DNA from: Bacteroidota bacterium
GTDB taxonomy: Bacteria; Bacteroidota; Bacteroidia; CAILMK01; JACPUW01
Length of the DNA stretch: 64,000 nt
Direction: 5' to 3'
NCBI GenBank assembly: GCA_016192035.1
Contig: JACPUW010000044.1
Span: 1 to 64,000, forward strand
Position 1 is the stretch's first letter; each line of letters begins with the position of its first letter. The notes beneath the pieces were generated by a model that was not told the DNA's origin, made no database searches, and saw nothing but the letters and a program-made list of their open reading frames with translations. A program made the position numbers and the translations under genes. Shown one piece after another: positions 7,949-64,000 of the stretch.

Positions 7949-8596
7949 ATGGAATTTGCCGTTTTCACCTTTAATCCCTTTCAGGAAAATACCTATGTGG
8001 TATGGGACGACACCAAAAACTGTGTGCTCATAGACCCGGGCAGCTACTACCCAAGTGAAATAGAGGAAATCACCCGCTTTATTGATGATAATGGACTTCA
8101 TCCCCACAGTGTGCTCAATACCCACTGTCACTTAGACCATGTGTTTGGTGTACAGCATTTTAAGTCGCTGTACCAAATCCCATTTGTATGTCACCTACAG
8201 GAACGGGCCAACCTAGACAGGCTGGAATTCCAGGCAGGCATGTTTGGTATTAGGCTTAAATACCCCTGTCCGGAGCCCGATGTTCTTCTAGGTGCTGAAA
8301 GCCAATATCAGTTTGGCAATACTGTCCTTCGCCTGCTCTTTGTGCCAGGCCATTCGCCGGGCCATCTGGCCTTCTACCACCAGCCTAGCGGCGTGCTGTT
8401 GGGTGGCGATGTGCTTTTTCGAGAAGGGATAGGACGTACCGATTTGCCTGGCTCTAGCCAACCCGCCCTGGTTCAAAGCATTCAAGAAGTACTCTATGCC
8501 CTGCCCGGCGAAACACGGGTACTCCCCGGCCATATGGGTGAAACCACCATAGGCCATGAGAAAAGGCACAACCCCTATGTAAGGGCTAAAACCTAA
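7949..8596 (+). CDS. MBL-fold metallo-hydrolase, glyoxalase II-like
   Basis: 215 aa, full length for this small class. The metal site of the metallo-beta-lactamase fold is complete: THCHLDHVFG (H-x-H-x-D-H), a later His in GHSPGHLAFY, the bridging Asp in LGGDVLFREGIGRTDLPG, and a final His in LPGHMGETTIG. This is the pattern of glyoxalase II-like thioester hydrolases with two metals. The usual C-terminal substrate domain of true glyoxalase II is absent, so the substrate is open. GACCTTTG 5 bp before the ATG resembles a -7 box. The last 11 bp overlap the convergent PorG-like gene. Confidence 0.88.
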   Translation: MEFAVFTFNPFQENTYVVWDDTKNCVLIDPGSYYPSEIEEITRFIDDNGLHPHSVLNTHCHLDHVFGVQHFKSLYQIPFVCHLQERANLDRLEFQAGMFGIRLKYPCPEPDVLLGAESQYQFGNTVLRLLFVPGHSPGHLAFYHQPSGVLLGGDVLFREGIGRTDLPGSSQPALVQSIQEVLYALPGETRVLPGHMGETTIGHEKRHNPYVRAKT

Positions 8597-9458
8597 AGCA
8601 AGTAGGCGGGAAAAAGGTGTAGGTTAGCGTGATTCCGGTAAAATAGTACCAGTCATTGGTGGTGCTGTTGCCCCTGGGCACAATCAATTCCTCGGGCGGC
8701 ACATCCCTCCCCGTAAGCTCCGAACGGCGGTCCATAAGCCTCCAGCCGTAGTCACCGGTGGTTTGATAGTACACCGCCTCTGGCACATACCAGTGGCTCA
8801 CGTCGTCAAGGTAGTCAGTAAATACCTTGCGGGCCGTAAACTCAAACGTGAAATTGATGCTGCGGCCTAGCGCGTATTTTATGCCAAGCCCCATGGGTAC
8901 GCATACCTGTGTTAGGCCATAGGGCCTTTGTGGATAGCCCTGTGATTCAAGGGGCTGGTTGTATGTGGAACCCTGGCCTTCGGTGCCCATTTGCTGTAGG
9001 TTCCACACCACGCCGTCTAGCTCGGCCTGTGGGGTAAACTTGTAAATGCCCAGCCCAGCGTAGGCAAACGGGCTAAACCTATATCGTCGCGAACGGATCT
9101 TGTAGCCTGTGAAATGAAATTCAGGGGTCACGCTCAACTCACTTACTGGAGAGAAAAAACTTAGGTTGCGGGCACGGCGGCGCTCGTCGGTAGCGTATTC
9201 GTCACTGCCCGAAATGGTGCCATAATAGCCGGCAGCCCGTATGGACCATTTGTAGTTCAGGTTGTACCTAATTACCCCACCCACTGCAGGGTGCATGGTT
9301 TCGGTCATAAAAAGCCCCTCGCTTAGGTCGCCATTGTAGTGGCTGGTACCCATAAAGGTGCCAACTTCCCATTTCTGGGCCAAGGCACTCAACGTACATA
9401 AGCACATGGCTACCAAGTACATGAATTTCATGGGGAGTTTCATTAAAAGGTGTTGCAT
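8586..9458 (-). CDS. PorG-like outer-membrane barrel protein (DUF6089), third of three
   Basis: 290 aa with an N-terminal signal peptide (MKFMYLVAMCLCTLSALAQ). Three possible ATGs lie at 9458, 9443 and 9431; I keep the longest. The mature protein has family marks: GTSHYNGDLSEG at the start, RARNLSFFSPVSEL, an FAYAGLGIYKF strand, TEGQGSTYNQP, FTDYLDDVSHWYV and a C-terminal aromatic residue (FRF) typical of barrel proteins. PorG of Porphyromonas, in the same family, is a T9SS outer-membrane component. It overlaps the preceding paralogue by 16 bp and is the last gene of the long nadK/gdhA run. Confidence 0.82.
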   Translation of the reverse strand: MQHLLMKLPMKFMYLVAMCLCTLSALAQKWEVGTFMGTSHYNGDLSEGLFMTETMHPAVGGVIRYNLNYKWSIRAAGYYGTISGSDEYATDERRRARNLSFFSPVSELSVTPEFHFTGYKIRSRRYRFSPFAYAGLGIYKFTPQAELDGVVWNLQQMGTEGQGSTYNQPLESQGYPQRPYGLTQVCVPMGLGIKYALGRSINFTFEFTARKVFTDYLDDVSHWYVPEAVYYQTTGDYGWRLMDRRSELTGRDVPPEELIVPRGNSTTNDWYYFTGITLTYTFFPPTCFRF

Positions 9459-10312
9459 AAAATTCCGGTAAACTGTTTGGTAATATTCACCCCAAAGAAC
9501 ACATAGCGGTCTTTATTGGTAGGGTCTCCCCTAAATTGAAATCGGTCAAAACCTTGTCCAATAGGGTAATTCTCCTTTTCCAGCCTTCTGTCAGACAGGG
9601 CTTGGTTTAGGGAGTTTTCCCCATAGGCTATCTCCATTTCGTTTGGATCTGGGTAGTAGCCGCTCACGTCGTCCAGAAAATCCGTTAGGGTCCAGCGGTA
9701 GCAAAACTCCAAGCTTAAATAGTAGCCCCGTCCCATTTTTAGTTCTATGCCCACCCCCGCCGGTATGGCCAAGTCTATCAGGCTGTATTTGTCGCGGTGG
9801 CGCAAATAGGTGGTTCCTTGTCCCTCAGTGGCCAGTGGTTGCAGGTCTATCCATTCATTGTCATAGCGGGCCTGTGGGTTAAACATAAAGCCCGCCAGGC
9901 CGGCCAGTACGTAGGGGTGGCCCTTGTCAGTGTAAGAGGGGCCTGTAAACAAATGGATTTCAGAGACTATTTGAAATTCATAAATATTCGACCTAAAGTT
10001 TAGGTTCCTGTTCCTGCGCCAGTAAAAGGTTGACACGGCGTCGTCGGCAGTTACCCGTCCCACATAGGCACCGGCCCTCAGTTTCACCGTCCTGTCAAAG
10101 TGGTATTTGGCCAAGATGCCCCCCGCATTCTTCCAGAAATCAAAGTCGTTCAGGCCTGAGGAAAGGTCGCCTTGGTAATTGGAAAATCCCAAATTCACCC
10201 CAAACTCCATGTAGGGGTACTGCTGTGCTTGGGCATGAAATAGGCTTAGTAGGTAGGCAATGGGTAGAAATACAAGCGCTCTCAGTGGCGTATTGTTCAT
10301 TAGGTGGGTCAC
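9443..10312 (-). CDS. PorG-like outer-membrane barrel protein (DUF6089), second of three
   Basis: 289 aa. The GTG at 10312 directly abuts the stop of the upstream paralogue; an ATG four codons in (10300) is the alternative. A signal peptide ends at ...LSLFHAQAQQ. Family marks: FSNYQGDLSSG, RNRNLNFRSNIYEF, VLAGLAGFMFNPQARY, TEGQGTTYLR, LTDFLDDVSGYYPDP and a terminal aromatic (NTF). About the same length and domain layout as its two neighbours, from which it has clearly diverged in sequence, so the tandem triplication is old. Confidence 0.83.
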   Translation of the reverse strand: MTHLMNNTPLRALVFLPIAYLLSLFHAQAQQYPYMEFGVNLGFSNYQGDLSSGLNDFDFWKNAGGILAKYHFDRTVKLRAGAYVGRVTADDAVSTFYWRRNRNLNFRSNIYEFQIVSEIHLFTGPSYTDKGHPYVLAGLAGFMFNPQARYDNEWIDLQPLATEGQGTTYLRHRDKYSLIDLAIPAGVGIELKMGRGYYLSLEFCYRWTLTDFLDDVSGYYPDPNEMEIAYGENSLNQALSDRRLEKENYPIGQGFDRFQFRGDPTNKDRYVFFGVNITKQFTGILCNTF

Positions 10313-11152
10313 TTAAAAGGCGTAACAGGGTGATGCACCCAGCTTTTTGACAATCGTAAAAAAGAGGAACCCATACCAATCGCGGTTGTTGGGGTTGCCC
10401 CTCAAACTACCCGGCACGGCAGCATCAAGTCCCACCTCAGGCCTGCGGTCTGAGAGTTGTATGGCGGCAGCCCCATTTTCGGTCAGGGCAAGTTTGCTAA
10501 AATCGGGGTAATAACCGCTTATGTCATCTAGGTAATCGGTGAGGGTGGGCCGCATGCCCAGCTCTACCCCAAAGATTATATCGTCTGATACCGTTTTCTT
10601 GAAACCTATGCCAAAGGGGAATGAAATGCCAAAGGAGGAATATGGATCCAAGTTGCCGCCCGCAATGTATTGTCCCTCAGTGCCAATTTCGCGCAACTTG
10701 AGATAAGTGCGGTCTGCCAATTGGGCTTTTGGATCAAATCGAAATCCAGCCACTCCCGCAAAAATGTATGGCGCAAACGTCAGGTTGGCCGATCCGGGCA
10801 AAAAGGGAAATATGTCATATTCCACTTCCACGGCCAGTTCCATTATCGTAGTCCTAAAATTGAGGTTTGTTCGGTTATCACCCGCTATGTCCCTGTCGCG
10901 CCCAGTAATGTTTCCGTACGAAAAACCTGCACGCAATTTCCAATTGGCGTTCATGTTAGCCCGCATGAACAGACCCACGGCCGGGCTTGATTCGGAGGGC
11001 ACCGGACGGGGTGCCAAGTCGCCTATGTAGGTGGACAGCCCAAAACGCGCACCCAGTTCTACCTGGCTTATGGCAAGGCAGGGAAGTAGTACCAAGGCGG
11101 CCAATGCTAAGCCTCTCAGTTCCGTTATGCCGGTTTTCACTTTGGTCAACAT
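10313..11152 (-). CDS. PorG-like outer-membrane barrel protein (DUF6089), first of three
   Basis: 279 aa, start ATG at 11152, signal peptide ending near PCLAISQ. Marks: GLSTYIGDLAP, RTNLNFRTTIMELAVEVEYDIF, FAGVAGFRFDPKAQ, TEGQYIAGG, LTDYLDDISGYYPDF, and a final YAF. It lies 34 bp downstream of nadK. In many Bacteroidota a single DUF6089 gene sits after nadK and before uppS and bamA; here the slot holds three copies and uppS/bamA are missing from this side. A fourth copy of the domain is fused to the protein at 62096. Confidence 0.85.
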   Translation of the reverse strand: MLTKVKTGITELRGLALAALVLLPCLAISQVELGARFGLSTYIGDLAPRPVPSESSPAVGLFMRANMNANWKLRAGFSYGNITGRDRDIAGDNRTNLNFRTTIMELAVEVEYDIFPFLPGSANLTFAPYIFAGVAGFRFDPKAQLADRTYLKLREIGTEGQYIAGGNLDPYSSFGISFPFGIGFKKTVSDDIIFGVELGMRPTLTDYLDDISGYYPDFSKLALTENGAAAIQLSDRRPEVGLDAAVPGSLRGNPNNRDWYGFLFFTIVKKLGASPCYAF

Positions 11153-60518: not shown

Positions 60519-62096
60519 ATGAGTGTAGGAAATTCAAATAGCCAAAAACTGCGTCAAAAGGCCATTGGCCTTCTGTACCTGCTGTTTATAGCCTTGGTTT
60601 TCATCTATGTGCCTTCTGATTTTCTCGACTCAATCAATGAGACCAACCGTTCACTCGAAAAAACATCCCTGGAACTTTCTGGGCTCAAATCAGGCAAGTT
60701 TATCATGTTTGAAAAGGAGGGGTTTGATTTAAGTATCAACAACCTAACGGATAGCTTTAAGTATCGGTTTATTTCTCAAGTGAGCGACACGGCCTATAAC
60801 CGGATAGCACGCATAAAGCAATTCTTGATAAATGAAACCGGAGGGTACAATGAGTTTGGCTACCCTAAAAAGAGCAAGGAATTTGACATTACCGACCACC
60901 TAATGCTCAACTCTAACAGGGCTACCAACTTAAAAAAGTCCATCTTGGAGTTTAAAAATAACATCAGGCCCTATTTGAGTGATGGGCAGGAATCCATACT
61001 CGATTCTATCTTGGTGATCAAAGAAAATGTGGTGGCATCAAATGGCAAAGCCATAGCCTGGGAAAAATTCTATTTCAAGAAAGCGCCACTCAGTGTCACC
61101 CAAATGATGCTTTCCAAATTTCAATCTGAGGTCCGATTGATTGAATATCTGATTCTTGATAAATACGAGCGCGACTTTCTGCACGATATTTTCATTCGCT
61201 CAGGACTTGCCCAAGCCAAGAAACTCGATGGTGATGCAAGTGAAGAATCAAACCTGGTGTTAAAAAAAGCCAAACCCTACTTTATGGTTGGCGAGGAAGT
61301 GGTATTGGAACCTGAAATAGAAGGGGTGGAGCGTGATGCCATTACATCAGCCAACCTCACGGCCGAATACCGGGTTGGCGATGTGGTAGAGCAAGCCCAA
61401 ATAAGCACAGATGGCCTTATCCGCTTTGTGCCGAAAGTGAGCGGAGATTACGAGGTGATGGCAACTTTTGAAGGCAAGGAAAGCGTAAATGTCGCTATTT
61501 CAGTATTTAACCCTAAACCAATCATCAACCGGGAAGAATTGGAAGCCCTATTCCTGGATGTGCGCAACCCCCTGCGTATAGAAGCCGACAACCTAGACCC
61601 CGCAAGCCTGGAAGTAAGCAGCACCATGGGCCAAATAAGAAAGATCAATGACCTGTACTATATCAAGTTTGACAAACCAGGCGAGGTAACCATACATGTA
61701 GATGCCACCATTGATGGCAAGAAAGTGCATATCAACAGCCGAAAATTCCTGGTAAAGGAACTGCCAATACCTTATGCATCACTCAACTCAATGAGGAGCG
61801 GAGAAATTCTCGAAGCCCATATGCGGCTCCAACGCAAGCTCATGGTGAAATCTGAAGTATATGAAACCGATAACTTTTACAATGTCAAGGAATTCAGGAT
61901 TACCAGGATTTCTGGCGATGGATATGAGGTAAACCAACTCCCTGCCATGAACAAAACGGCCAATTTTGGCCCTCACGCCATAGAAATGGTGAGAAAGGCA
62001 AGCAAAGGCGACCTCTTTGTTTTTGATGAAATAGTGGTGGTGGGTGCCAATGGTAAAGAACACGAACTACAGGCCCTGGCCTTTAAGATAATTTAA
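60519..62096 (+). CDS. gldM: GldM homologue, rotor subunit with periplasmic domains
   Basis: 525 aa. One N-terminal helix with the basic start KLRQKAIGLLYLLFIALVFIYV followed by P-S-D-F-L-D-S-I-N-E-T-N, which matches the GldM helix that sits inside the GldL pentamer (Arg12 corresponds to the conserved Arg). The periplasmic part is a row of four domains; the last has LPIPYASLNSMRSGEILEAH, FYNVKEFRITRI and GDLFVFDEIVVVGANGKEHEL, the D4 pattern. In T9SS this arm contacts the GldK/N ring. Its TAA overlaps the ATG of the next gene (TAATG). gldN does not follow. Confidence 0.88.
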   Translation: MSVGNSNSQKLRQKAIGLLYLLFIALVFIYVPSDFLDSINETNRSLEKTSLELSGLKSGKFIMFEKEGFDLSINNLTDSFKYRFISQVSDTAYNRIARIKQFLINETGGYNEFGYPKKSKEFDITDHLMLNSNRATNLKKSILEFKNNIRPYLSDGQESILDSILVIKENVVASNGKAIAWEKFYFKKAPLSVTQMMLSKFQSEVRLIEYLILDKYERDFLHDIFIRSGLAQAKKLDGDASEESNLVLKKAKPYFMVGEEVVLEPEIEGVERDAITSANLTAEYRVGDVVEQAQISTDGLIRFVPKVSGDYEVMATFEGKESVNVAISVFNPKPIINREELEALFLDVRNPLRIEADNLDPASLEVSSTMGQIRKINDLYYIKFDKPGEVTIHVDATIDGKKVHINSRKFLVKELPIPYASLNSMRSGEILEAHMRLQRKLMVKSEVYETDNFYNVKEFRITRISGDGYEVNQLPAMNKTANFGPHAIEMVRKASKGDLFVFDEIVVVGANGKEHELQALAFKII

Positions 62097-64000
62097 TGAA
62101 TAGGACAACAACAATATGGATTATAGCCGCGCTGGCTTCCGTCTGGTGGTTGCCGGCCCAAGGCCAGCAACTCCTGCCCGTGGTGGTGAACAACGACCTA
62201 AACCTGGCCAAGGGCACCTACTTGGCCGACCGCAATATCCTGATAGGCCCTGAAGCCGTGCTGCGCTTGGCACCAGGCAGTAAAGTTCTCTTGGCCCCCG
62301 GTGTAATTATCCGGGTGGAAGGAGGCATGGTCATAGAGGGAACCGAAAGCGAATTTGCCGAGATTACCAGCCAGGATCCGGCCCGGCTTGGTAAGGGCAT
62401 CATGGTTACCGGCATATCGGCCAAAGAAATTGTTTTTCACAAAGTGCGCATTCACCAAATAGAAATGCCGCTGGAATTTGGGCATGACTGGCACCGCCCA
62501 CTGGTATCCATTACCGGCAGTGAATTTAAGGACAACGTATCCTACACAACGGGCATTTTCGTTCGGGTCCCTGAAAACATTGAGGTTACCGGCAATTGCC
62601 ATTTCCGTATGGTGGGCAATTCGTACATCAACAACATAGGCGGCATATACATAGAAAACATAGACCAGGCCAACTTTCAGGTGACCGTGGGCCGAAATTT
62701 CGTATATGGAAACCGGGCTTATGGCGCAGGCTTGGAGGGCATGCTTACCTCCCCGTTTTTCTTTAGGAGCGATTTTGAAGATGCCAATAAAAATTTCGTG
62801 CTCAAGGACAATGTGTTTGATGAAAACTTTATCCTAGATTCTGAGTTTGATACGGTAATTCACGAAGTTAACGTGGGCGTGGCAGGCAATGCTTCAAAGG
62901 TTTCCATTCCCTTCAACTACTTTGGTCAAGAAAGCCTGGAACAAAAAACAAAGAAGATGGACCACTTTAGCAACAATGGAAGTGCGCCTTTTCTAAACAT
63001 TGTGCCTGAGCTTTCATCCCCTCCACAAGATATGCCACCCACGGTAACCTCGGTCATGCTCAATGGTCAGCCAATTATGCCCAGCCCCGATTTCATATTT
63101 GAGCCACAACCCGAAATAGAACTGGCATTGGTGTTTGCCGATGAGGTGGAAATAGCCAATTCATCCCCGCAGGTACGGTTTACTGCCTATGATGAAGAAA
63201 CCGAAACGGAAGTAAGCGGCGTGTTGAGTACCAGTGTTACCTGGACCGATGCCAGGACAGCCGTGTTCCGGAGCAAAGACATTCTCCTTTCCAAAGTGAA
63301 GCGTGTGTTTTTCACCTTTACCGGCATAGTAAGCAAATCGCAGTTCAGCGTTCCTGCTTTCTATCTGGGTGAAAATGGCTACAAACGCTTTATTGCCAAG
63401 AATAAAGCCGCAATCCTTGAAAATAAGGCCCGTTTTGCAGCTAGGGGAGGGGGGCCAGGGGGCACCGAAGGAAATTCACCAATAGACCCAGCGTTGATTA
63501 AGCAACTAATTGAACGACAGGACTCACTGGAAAAACTCTTGGAAGACCTCAAATCAAACGAAAGCAAGAACTACAAGGACATAATGGATGAAGCCGAAAA
63601 GCAAATCACTTTTGGCAGGTATTTCAAGGGGTCTTATGAGTTTGGGGCATTTGTTGGTACGGCATCATACTTTGGCGACCTAACCGGCAACGTGAATTTT
63701 GTGGATCCAGAAGACGTGGACTGGGCCTTTGGCCTCATAGCCAAATATAATTTTACCGAAAGGGTGACCCTAAGTGCCGGTTTGATTCAAGGGAAGCTCT
63801 CTGGCAATGAAAGCGACAACTTTAGGGGATCTCCATACCAAGACAGGGGGTTTGAATTCTACTCACCACTTACCGAAATCAACCTAAACCTAGAGTTTAA
63901 CCTCAATAAACTGGGCTTTGGCAACCAAGGAAGGTTTACCCCTGCGCTTTCCCTGGGTGTGTGCGGGTTTAGGTACCACCCCAAAACCCTATATACTTTT
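62096..64000 (+). CDS. Exported beta-helix/Ig-like/coiled-coil protein fused to a PorG-like barrel, 3' partial
   Basis: 635 codons seen, open to the window end; no stop in frame. Signal peptide about residues 1-24 (ASVWWLPAQGQ). Residues about 25-290 are short repeated strands with right-handed beta-helix rhythm (VLRLAPGSKVLLAPGVIIRV, EGGMVIEGT, SYINNIGGIYIENI). Residues about 305-425 look Ig-like (SVMLNGQPIMPSPDFIFEPQP). About 445-500 is Gly-rich then a coiled coil (LIERQDSLEKLLEDLK). From 505 the protein reads as the DUF6089/PorG-like barrel (GAFVGTASYFGDLTG, KYNFTERVTLSAGLIQG, LSLGVCGFRYHPKTLYT), like the genes at 8586-11152, and is cut by the window end. It would link the motor to the outer membrane. 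Confidence 0.85.
   Translation, partial: MNRTTTIWIIAALASVWWLPAQGQQLLPVVVNNDLNLAKGTYLADRNILIGPEAVLRLAPGSKVLLAPGVIIRVEGGMVIEGTESEFAEITSQDPARLGKGIMVTGISAKEIVFHKVRIHQIEMPLEFGHDWHRPLVSITGSEFKDNVSYTTGIFVRVPENIEVTGNCHFRMVGNSYINNIGGIYIENIDQANFQVTVGRNFVYGNRAYGAGLEGMLTSPFFFRSDFEDANKNFVLKDNVFDENFILDSEFDTVIHEVNVGVAGNASKVSIPFNYFGQESLEQKTKKMDHFSNNGSAPFLNIVPELSSPPQDMPPTVTSVMLNGQPIMPSPDFIFEPQPEIELALVFADEVEIANSSPQVRFTAYDEETETEVSGVLSTSVTWTDARTAVFRSKDILLSKVKRVFFTFTGIVSKSQFSVPAFYLGENGYKRFIAKNKAAILENKARFAARGGGPGGTEGNSPIDPALIKQLIERQDSLEKLLEDLKSNESKNYKDIMDEAEKQITFGRYFKGSYEFGAFVGTASYFGDLTGNVNFVDPEDVDWAFGLIAKYNFTERVTLSAGLIQGKLSGNESDNFRGSPYQDRGFEFYSPLTEINLNLEFNLNKLGFGNQGRFTPALSLGVCGFRYHPKTLYTF

Follow-up and report, generated by a model that had tools for sequence, protein, structure and literature searches.

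A PorG-like outer-membrane barrel fused to a β-helix arm is encoded next to a divergent GldLM pair in uncultured Bacteroidia

Introduction

What does a GldLM motor act on when the genes of its usual partners do not accompany it? Type IX secretion and gliding are the known tasks of GldLM motors, which act by way of a large GldKN ring/track. In the window, which is the whole 64,000-nucleotide stretch of DNA analysed here, a divergent GldL/GldM pair (GldL′ and GldM′) is followed by one gene that joins a long exported arm to a PorG-like barrel. Both the motor and the barrel of this gldL′-gldM′-fusion operon are members of known families. The operon itself is apparently undescribed: the system was not found in the literature on paralogous or duplicated GldLM, PorG fusions and β-helix parts of the type IX secretion system (T9SS), of which subscription papers and preprints were mostly outside reach. 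With it, a reduced second form of the type IX secretion/gliding motor seems to be present in these uncultured bacteria. The fusion protein is probably a one-piece force acceptor, anchored in the outer membrane (OM), of this dedicated second GldLM motor, replacing GldN, GldK and PorG.

Results

A divergent GldLM pair followed by a fusion gene

The features of the locus are listed in Table 1. GldL′ scores 103.6 bits with TIGR03513, above the cut-off of 68.3, and matches GldL_N with an E-value of 1.3e-24. GldM′ matches TIGR03517 across its whole length with 110.3 bits, below the equivalog cut-off of 180, and its residues 2-520 match the PorM/GldM entry 7cmg of the PDB (E 1.4e-13). As the full-length homology is clear though the score lies below the equivalog cut-off, GldM′ is assigned as a divergent paralogue. 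The fusion gene is the last gene of the operon. Its ATG and the stop codon of gldM′ overlap, and its reading frame is still open where the window stops, the contig carrying on beyond. Another contig carries an intact canonical gldK-gldL-gldM-gldN set (gldM on C23), and the only gldN of the genome is located on C23 with this set.

Table 1 Features of the gldL′-gldM′-fusion operon and stand-alone PorG-like genes of the window
Feature	Position	Strand	Evidence or remark
gldL′, ring subunit of the motor; divergent paralogue of GldL with 178 aa	59972-60508	+	TIGR03513, GldL_N, TM2 Glu
gldM′, axle and periplasmic arm of the motor; divergent paralogue of GldM with 525 aa	60519-62096	+	TIGR03517, 7cmg
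Fusion gene, 774 aa	62096-64420 on the contig	+	Window ends at 64000, residue 635
Signal peptide, residues 1-24	62096-62167	+	Hydrophobic N-terminus up to AQG (sequence); helix 3-18 (AlphaFold model)
Right-handed parallel β-helix, residues ~24-308	62165-63019	+	AlphaFold model; VIA-align Z 19.8
Ig-like β-sandwich, residues ~316-425	63041-63370	+	Strand order in AlphaFold models (window part and L109)
Linker with helices 426-449 and 465-485 (coiled coil of the sequence-only reading)	63371-63625	+	Low pLDDT
PorG-like (DUF6089) 8-stranded OM barrel, residues 513-774	First part 63632-64000 in the window	+	DUF6089, T9SS_PorG, L109 model
Stand-alone PorG-like genes	8586-9458; 9443-10312; 10313-11152	-	C-tail cysteine in each

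A GldL′ profile scan of a species-genome collection gave 69 loci that separated cleanly: 38 belong to the GldL′ type, and the majority of the others read GldK-L-M-N. Thirty GldL′-type loci extend far enough downstream to be assessed, and 29 of them carry the fusion gene immediately after GldM′, with gaps between operon genes mostly of -4 to +15 bp. The fusion gene is thus locked to the divergent pair, in agreement with the link to GldM proposed in an earlier, sequence-only reading of the window. Neither GldK nor GldN was matched in any GldL′-type locus, and the locus does not have the composition of a T9SS core operon. The one exception (L094:9995-12156) contains GldL′-GldM′ without a fusion gene; its genome (2.0 Mb, incomplete) gave no β-helix match and only one stand-alone PorG-like protein. 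In the GldL tree, which is short with long branches and fixes neither rooting nor timing, GldL′ is split from canonical GldL by a branch with an SH-aLRT value of 97. Duplications also occur in canonical T9SS operons: L132:13460-15967 has a second GldM-GldN pair after GldKLMN, and L126 and L127 have two GldN-like genes in a row.

Motor residues and the tandem GldM clade

Glu49 of GldL is essential to the Flavobacterium johnsoniae motor (PMC8986121). The equivalent Glu in TM2 is present in all 38 GldL′ and in all 10 canonical GldL proteins examined. An N-terminal Arg of GldM, which precedes the TM Tyr by eight residues, is found in 28/28 canonical GldM and 12/13 single-type GldM′ proteins, and presumably acts in the GldL-GldM interface. 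GldM′ of the window possesses both the Arg and the Tyr.

In one large clade, GldL′ is followed by two tandem GldM paralogues, GldMa and then GldMb, neither of which matched any Pfam family. The Arg is absent from GldMa (27/27) and present in GldMb (23/23), while the Tyr is present in all but one of these proteins. A separate tandem GldM pair, in L087, consists of sisters on the GldM tree, and its first copy has again lost the Arg, here to Gln. Since the first tandem copy always lacks the Arg, the sequences suggest that GldMa and GldMb may form an asymmetric heterodimer with one arginine per motor, and the tandem pairs represent a natural experiment on asymmetry in a 5:2 motor. The tandem clade (L088-L124; for example L078:9632-10159 and L115:9330-9863) also carries a gene for a small exported protein of ~160-200 aa, probably a coiled coil, just upstream of GldL′.

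Domain organization of the fusion protein

The AlphaFold model of the window protein covers the window part only and includes the barrel only in its first strands. The full-length homologue L109 was therefore informative for the complete chain: its model (mean pLDDT 82.2) contains the β-helix, the Ig-like domain and a disordered linker, followed by a barrel of exactly eight strands, the number found in PorG; this barrel matches OmpA/OmpW in structure comparison. No lipobox Cys is seen in the signal peptide when it is read from the sequence. As the sequence-only reading had stated, about 500 exported residues lie ahead of the barrel, which starts at ~513. In the fusion proteins of the tandem-GldM clade, the Ig-like domain is reduced in the alignment.

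The layout proposed earlier, β-helix, Ig-like domain, coiled coil and PorG-like barrel, agrees with the AlphaFold models and with the DUF6089 and T9SS_PorG matches for helix, Ig and barrel; its coiled coil is weak and unconserved. In the model of the window part, linker helix 465-485 has low confidence (block means ~41-49). The linker varies in length and sequence among homologues; in most of them it is short and no coiled coil is evident. The suggestion that the coiled coil threads or multimerises the barrel is unsupported, because the segment is unconserved and an eight-stranded barrel has no room for a chain; a conserved element of this kind was rejected. In L108:4385-7015, a second barrel-like stretch follows the first in the same ORF, which encodes at least 876 aa and is cut by the contig end.

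The fused barrel belongs to the PorG family

Pfam DUF6089 (PF19573) matches residues 515-696 with an E-value of 3e-19 and 69.7 bits, above the gathering cut-off of 23.2, which settles the C-terminal identity that had been read from the translation. NCBIfam T9SS_PorG (NF052316) matches residues 513-701 (E 1.5e-27) with 96.8 bits, below the equivalog cut-off of 130 that two of the three stand-alone paralogues in the window exceed (147.1 and 164.1 bits). The other DUF6089 proteins of the window are single-domain barrels of 279-290 aa, close to the ~280 aa given for them before. Three such genes stand in a row at 8586-11152 on the reverse strand, each with a C-tail cysteine. The genome has four stand-alone PorG-like proteins, all with this cysteine, three encoded in the window and a fourth on contig C23. 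In several relatives of the same order (L017-L023, L025, L027), two or three genes for PorG-like proteins likewise stand next to each other.

In the barrel-domain tree, a branch with an SH-aLRT value of 97 separates the 30 fused barrels from those of 53 stand-alone PorG-like proteins, which fits a single fusion event with one apparent origin. The two groups differ at the C-terminus. PorG is disulfide-bonded to GldK through its C-tail cysteine, and the moving track can drag PorG (PMC12635249). A cysteine within the last 30 residues is present in 48/53 stand-alone proteins. Among the fused barrels only 1/30 has one in this region, located inside the last strand, and none has it in the tail; the fusion protein of the window has no cysteine in its last 30 residues. 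As the fused barrels form one group, the missing cysteine counts as one evolutionary difference and not as thirty. Its absence fits the composition of the locus, in which there is no adjacent GldK to bind and a covalent N-terminal arm may take the place of this bond.

With eight strands, a barrel should have its N- and C-terminus both on the periplasmic side, which would turn the arm towards GldM′. The fusion protein is thus viewed as an OM barrel joined to a long, presumably periplasmic arm.

Could GldL′M′ and the fusion protein instead be an alternative motor on the ordinary SprA translocon, with the fusion protein replacing PorG for some substrates or conditions? The barrel is a PorG family member, and GldK and SprA are both found above the cut-off in 18/18 operon-bearing genomes tested, as would suit such a role. 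Against it, the fused barrel lacks the cysteine of the C-tail through which PorG is attached to GldK, and no Pfam family matches GldMa/GldMb. Moreover, PorM contacts PorN through D4 in the T9SS, and GldM_4th, the domain that makes this contact in PorM (PMC12421860), is below the cut-off in GldM′ of the window. Taken together, we consider this alternative unlikely. Because all 18 genomes have GldK and SprA, the dedicated second motor may nevertheless depend on the T9SS; regarding INDEPENDENCE from T9SS, it could share parts with the T9SS.

The arm contains a β-helix without conserved catalytic residues

Residues 25-510 of the fusion protein match no Pfam family, and a PDB sequence search with the full protein gave nothing useful and no convincing match. 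Foldseek with the model of the window part found no match at E ≤ 0.001. The β-helix emerged clearly with VIA-align, in which residues 23-308 align on parallel β-helices (Z 19.8, rmsd 3.6, 240 aligned). The fold neighbours of the arm in structure comparison include alginate lyases, epimerases and phage depolymerases.

These neighbours point to another reading, in which the β-helix is a surface-displayed adhesin or an enzyme acting on polysaccharides, the barrel does no more than hold it in the membrane and the motor genes serve its export. PL6-type polysaccharide lyases have a conserved Lys/Arg dyad and an acidic Ca2+ site. The PL6 catalytic and metal-binding residues are not found in the β-helix across the 31 homologues: its columns conserved at ≥87% are Gly, Leu, Phe, Trp132, Arg134 and Asn180/206/244, with no Asp, Glu, His or Lys among them. 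Because of this absence of conserved Asp/Glu/His/Lys, a structural or binding role is favoured over catalysis, and the conservation pattern makes the β-helix a disfavoured candidate for an enzyme. In addition, surface exposure is at odds with the eight-stranded barrel of the L109 model, which by general knowledge should leave both termini periplasmic. A surface adhesin or enzyme is accordingly quite improbable.

In genome G041, GldL′-GldM′ is followed by an arm that forms a protein of its own, with 449 aa and no barrel. The next gene overlaps the arm gene by 4 bp and encodes a PD40/OmpA-domain protein with a PorE-like layout. As the arm stands alone here and is followed by a PD40/OmpA-domain gene, the arrangement points to the arm as the constant part, which stays with the motor, and to an exchangeable outer anchor. 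Three PD40-type genes lie directly after the arm in this genome (L041:7349-14103); two have OmpA domains, and one has a SPOR domain as well.

The fusion family is rare and spread over several families

In total, 30 fused homologues (that of the window included) and one barrel-less member were collected, so the architecture, whose count in other genomes had been called for, is a conserved family and not a one-off. Nearly all of the fused homologues come from uncultured Bacteroidia, and those carriers that have a name are MAGs from uncultured Bacteroidota. A full-length orthologue of 775 aa with 30% identity is present in another genus of the same family, and a profile of the N-terminal module found further members in other families of the class. 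A phylum-wide sample of 395 genomes contained no family member except in the genome of the window itself, which indicates that the family is rare. An assembly error or chance joining of two genes is practically impossible: the same gene is carried by independent genomes, which excludes the artefact that had been feared, and the thirty fused homologues have one apparent origin, open frames and tight operon spacing. In genome G198, a frameshift inside the Ig domain splits the fusion gene (L077:5991-8196, the same place as L121), which is either an assembly error or a pseudogene.

Discussion

Proposed force transmission by a single polypeptide

In the mechanism that we favour, GldL′ and GldM′ would assemble in the inner membrane as a 5:2 motor driven by protons, and the PorG-like C-terminal barrel of the fusion protein would sit in the outer membrane. 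The periplasmic arm of GldM′, composed of Ig-like domains, would engage the β-helix/Ig arm of the fusion protein. It is reasonable to suppose that the β-helix may reach the GldM arm, as the sequence-only reading had suggested; the contact with the GldM′ arm and the transmission of force through it are likewise inferred. One polypeptide would thereby replace the T9SS force chain from GldM over GldN and GldK to PorG with its C-tail disulfide, and movement of the motor would directly drag or twist the barrel in the outer membrane.

More tentatively, the operon may encode a third type of GldLM machine beside type IX secretion and gliding. Such a machine would be a minimal trans-envelope motor of three or four proteins without the GldKN ring/track, with a single polypeptide as the connection between the motor arm and an OM barrel that moves, and in one clade it would have an obligate GldM heterodimer that keeps one of the two motor arginines. 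An operon that keeps the motor and seemingly replaces the whole transmission by one protein would be the simplest test object for the transfer of force from GldLM to the outer membrane. Moreover, it predicts a motor-driven process in uncultured Bacteroidia beyond those known.

Comparison with known systems

The barrel domain is common to PorG (NF052316)/DUF6089 (PF19573) proteins and the C-terminus of the fusion protein. The latter differs in having ~500 extra exported residues, in lacking the GldK-bonding cysteine and in occupying a separate branch of the barrel tree. The arm, through residues 24-308, shares its fold (Z up to 19.8) with parallel β-helices such as the C-terminal domain of PL6 alginate lyase, AlgG and NosD, but has no conserved acidic, His or Lys residue.

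In the Tol-Pal and ExbBD-TonB systems, an inner-membrane 5:2 motor acts on an OM partner with few components. The likeness of GldL′M′ and the fusion protein to these systems lies in the way of working, whereas the OM partner here is an integral barrel. GldLM and TolQR/ExbBD have no known sequence homology (PMC9389320). The AglRQS gliding motor of Myxococcus xanthus has one ring protein and two axle paralogues (PMC9389320), as in the GldMa/GldMb clade, but AglRQS consists of MotAB-type proteins and has no PorG barrel.

The closest relatives are the T9SS/gliding machines, GldKLMN with PorG in F. johnsoniae and PorKLMN in Porphyromonas gingivalis. Common to these and the present system are homologues of GldL and GldM with the Glu, Arg and Tyr of the motor, as well as an OM barrel of the PorG family. 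In contrast to the T9SS/gliding machines, the GldL′ locus has neither GldK nor GldN, the barrel is fused to a β-helix/Ig arm and lacks the C-tail cysteine, and GldM is doubled in one clade.
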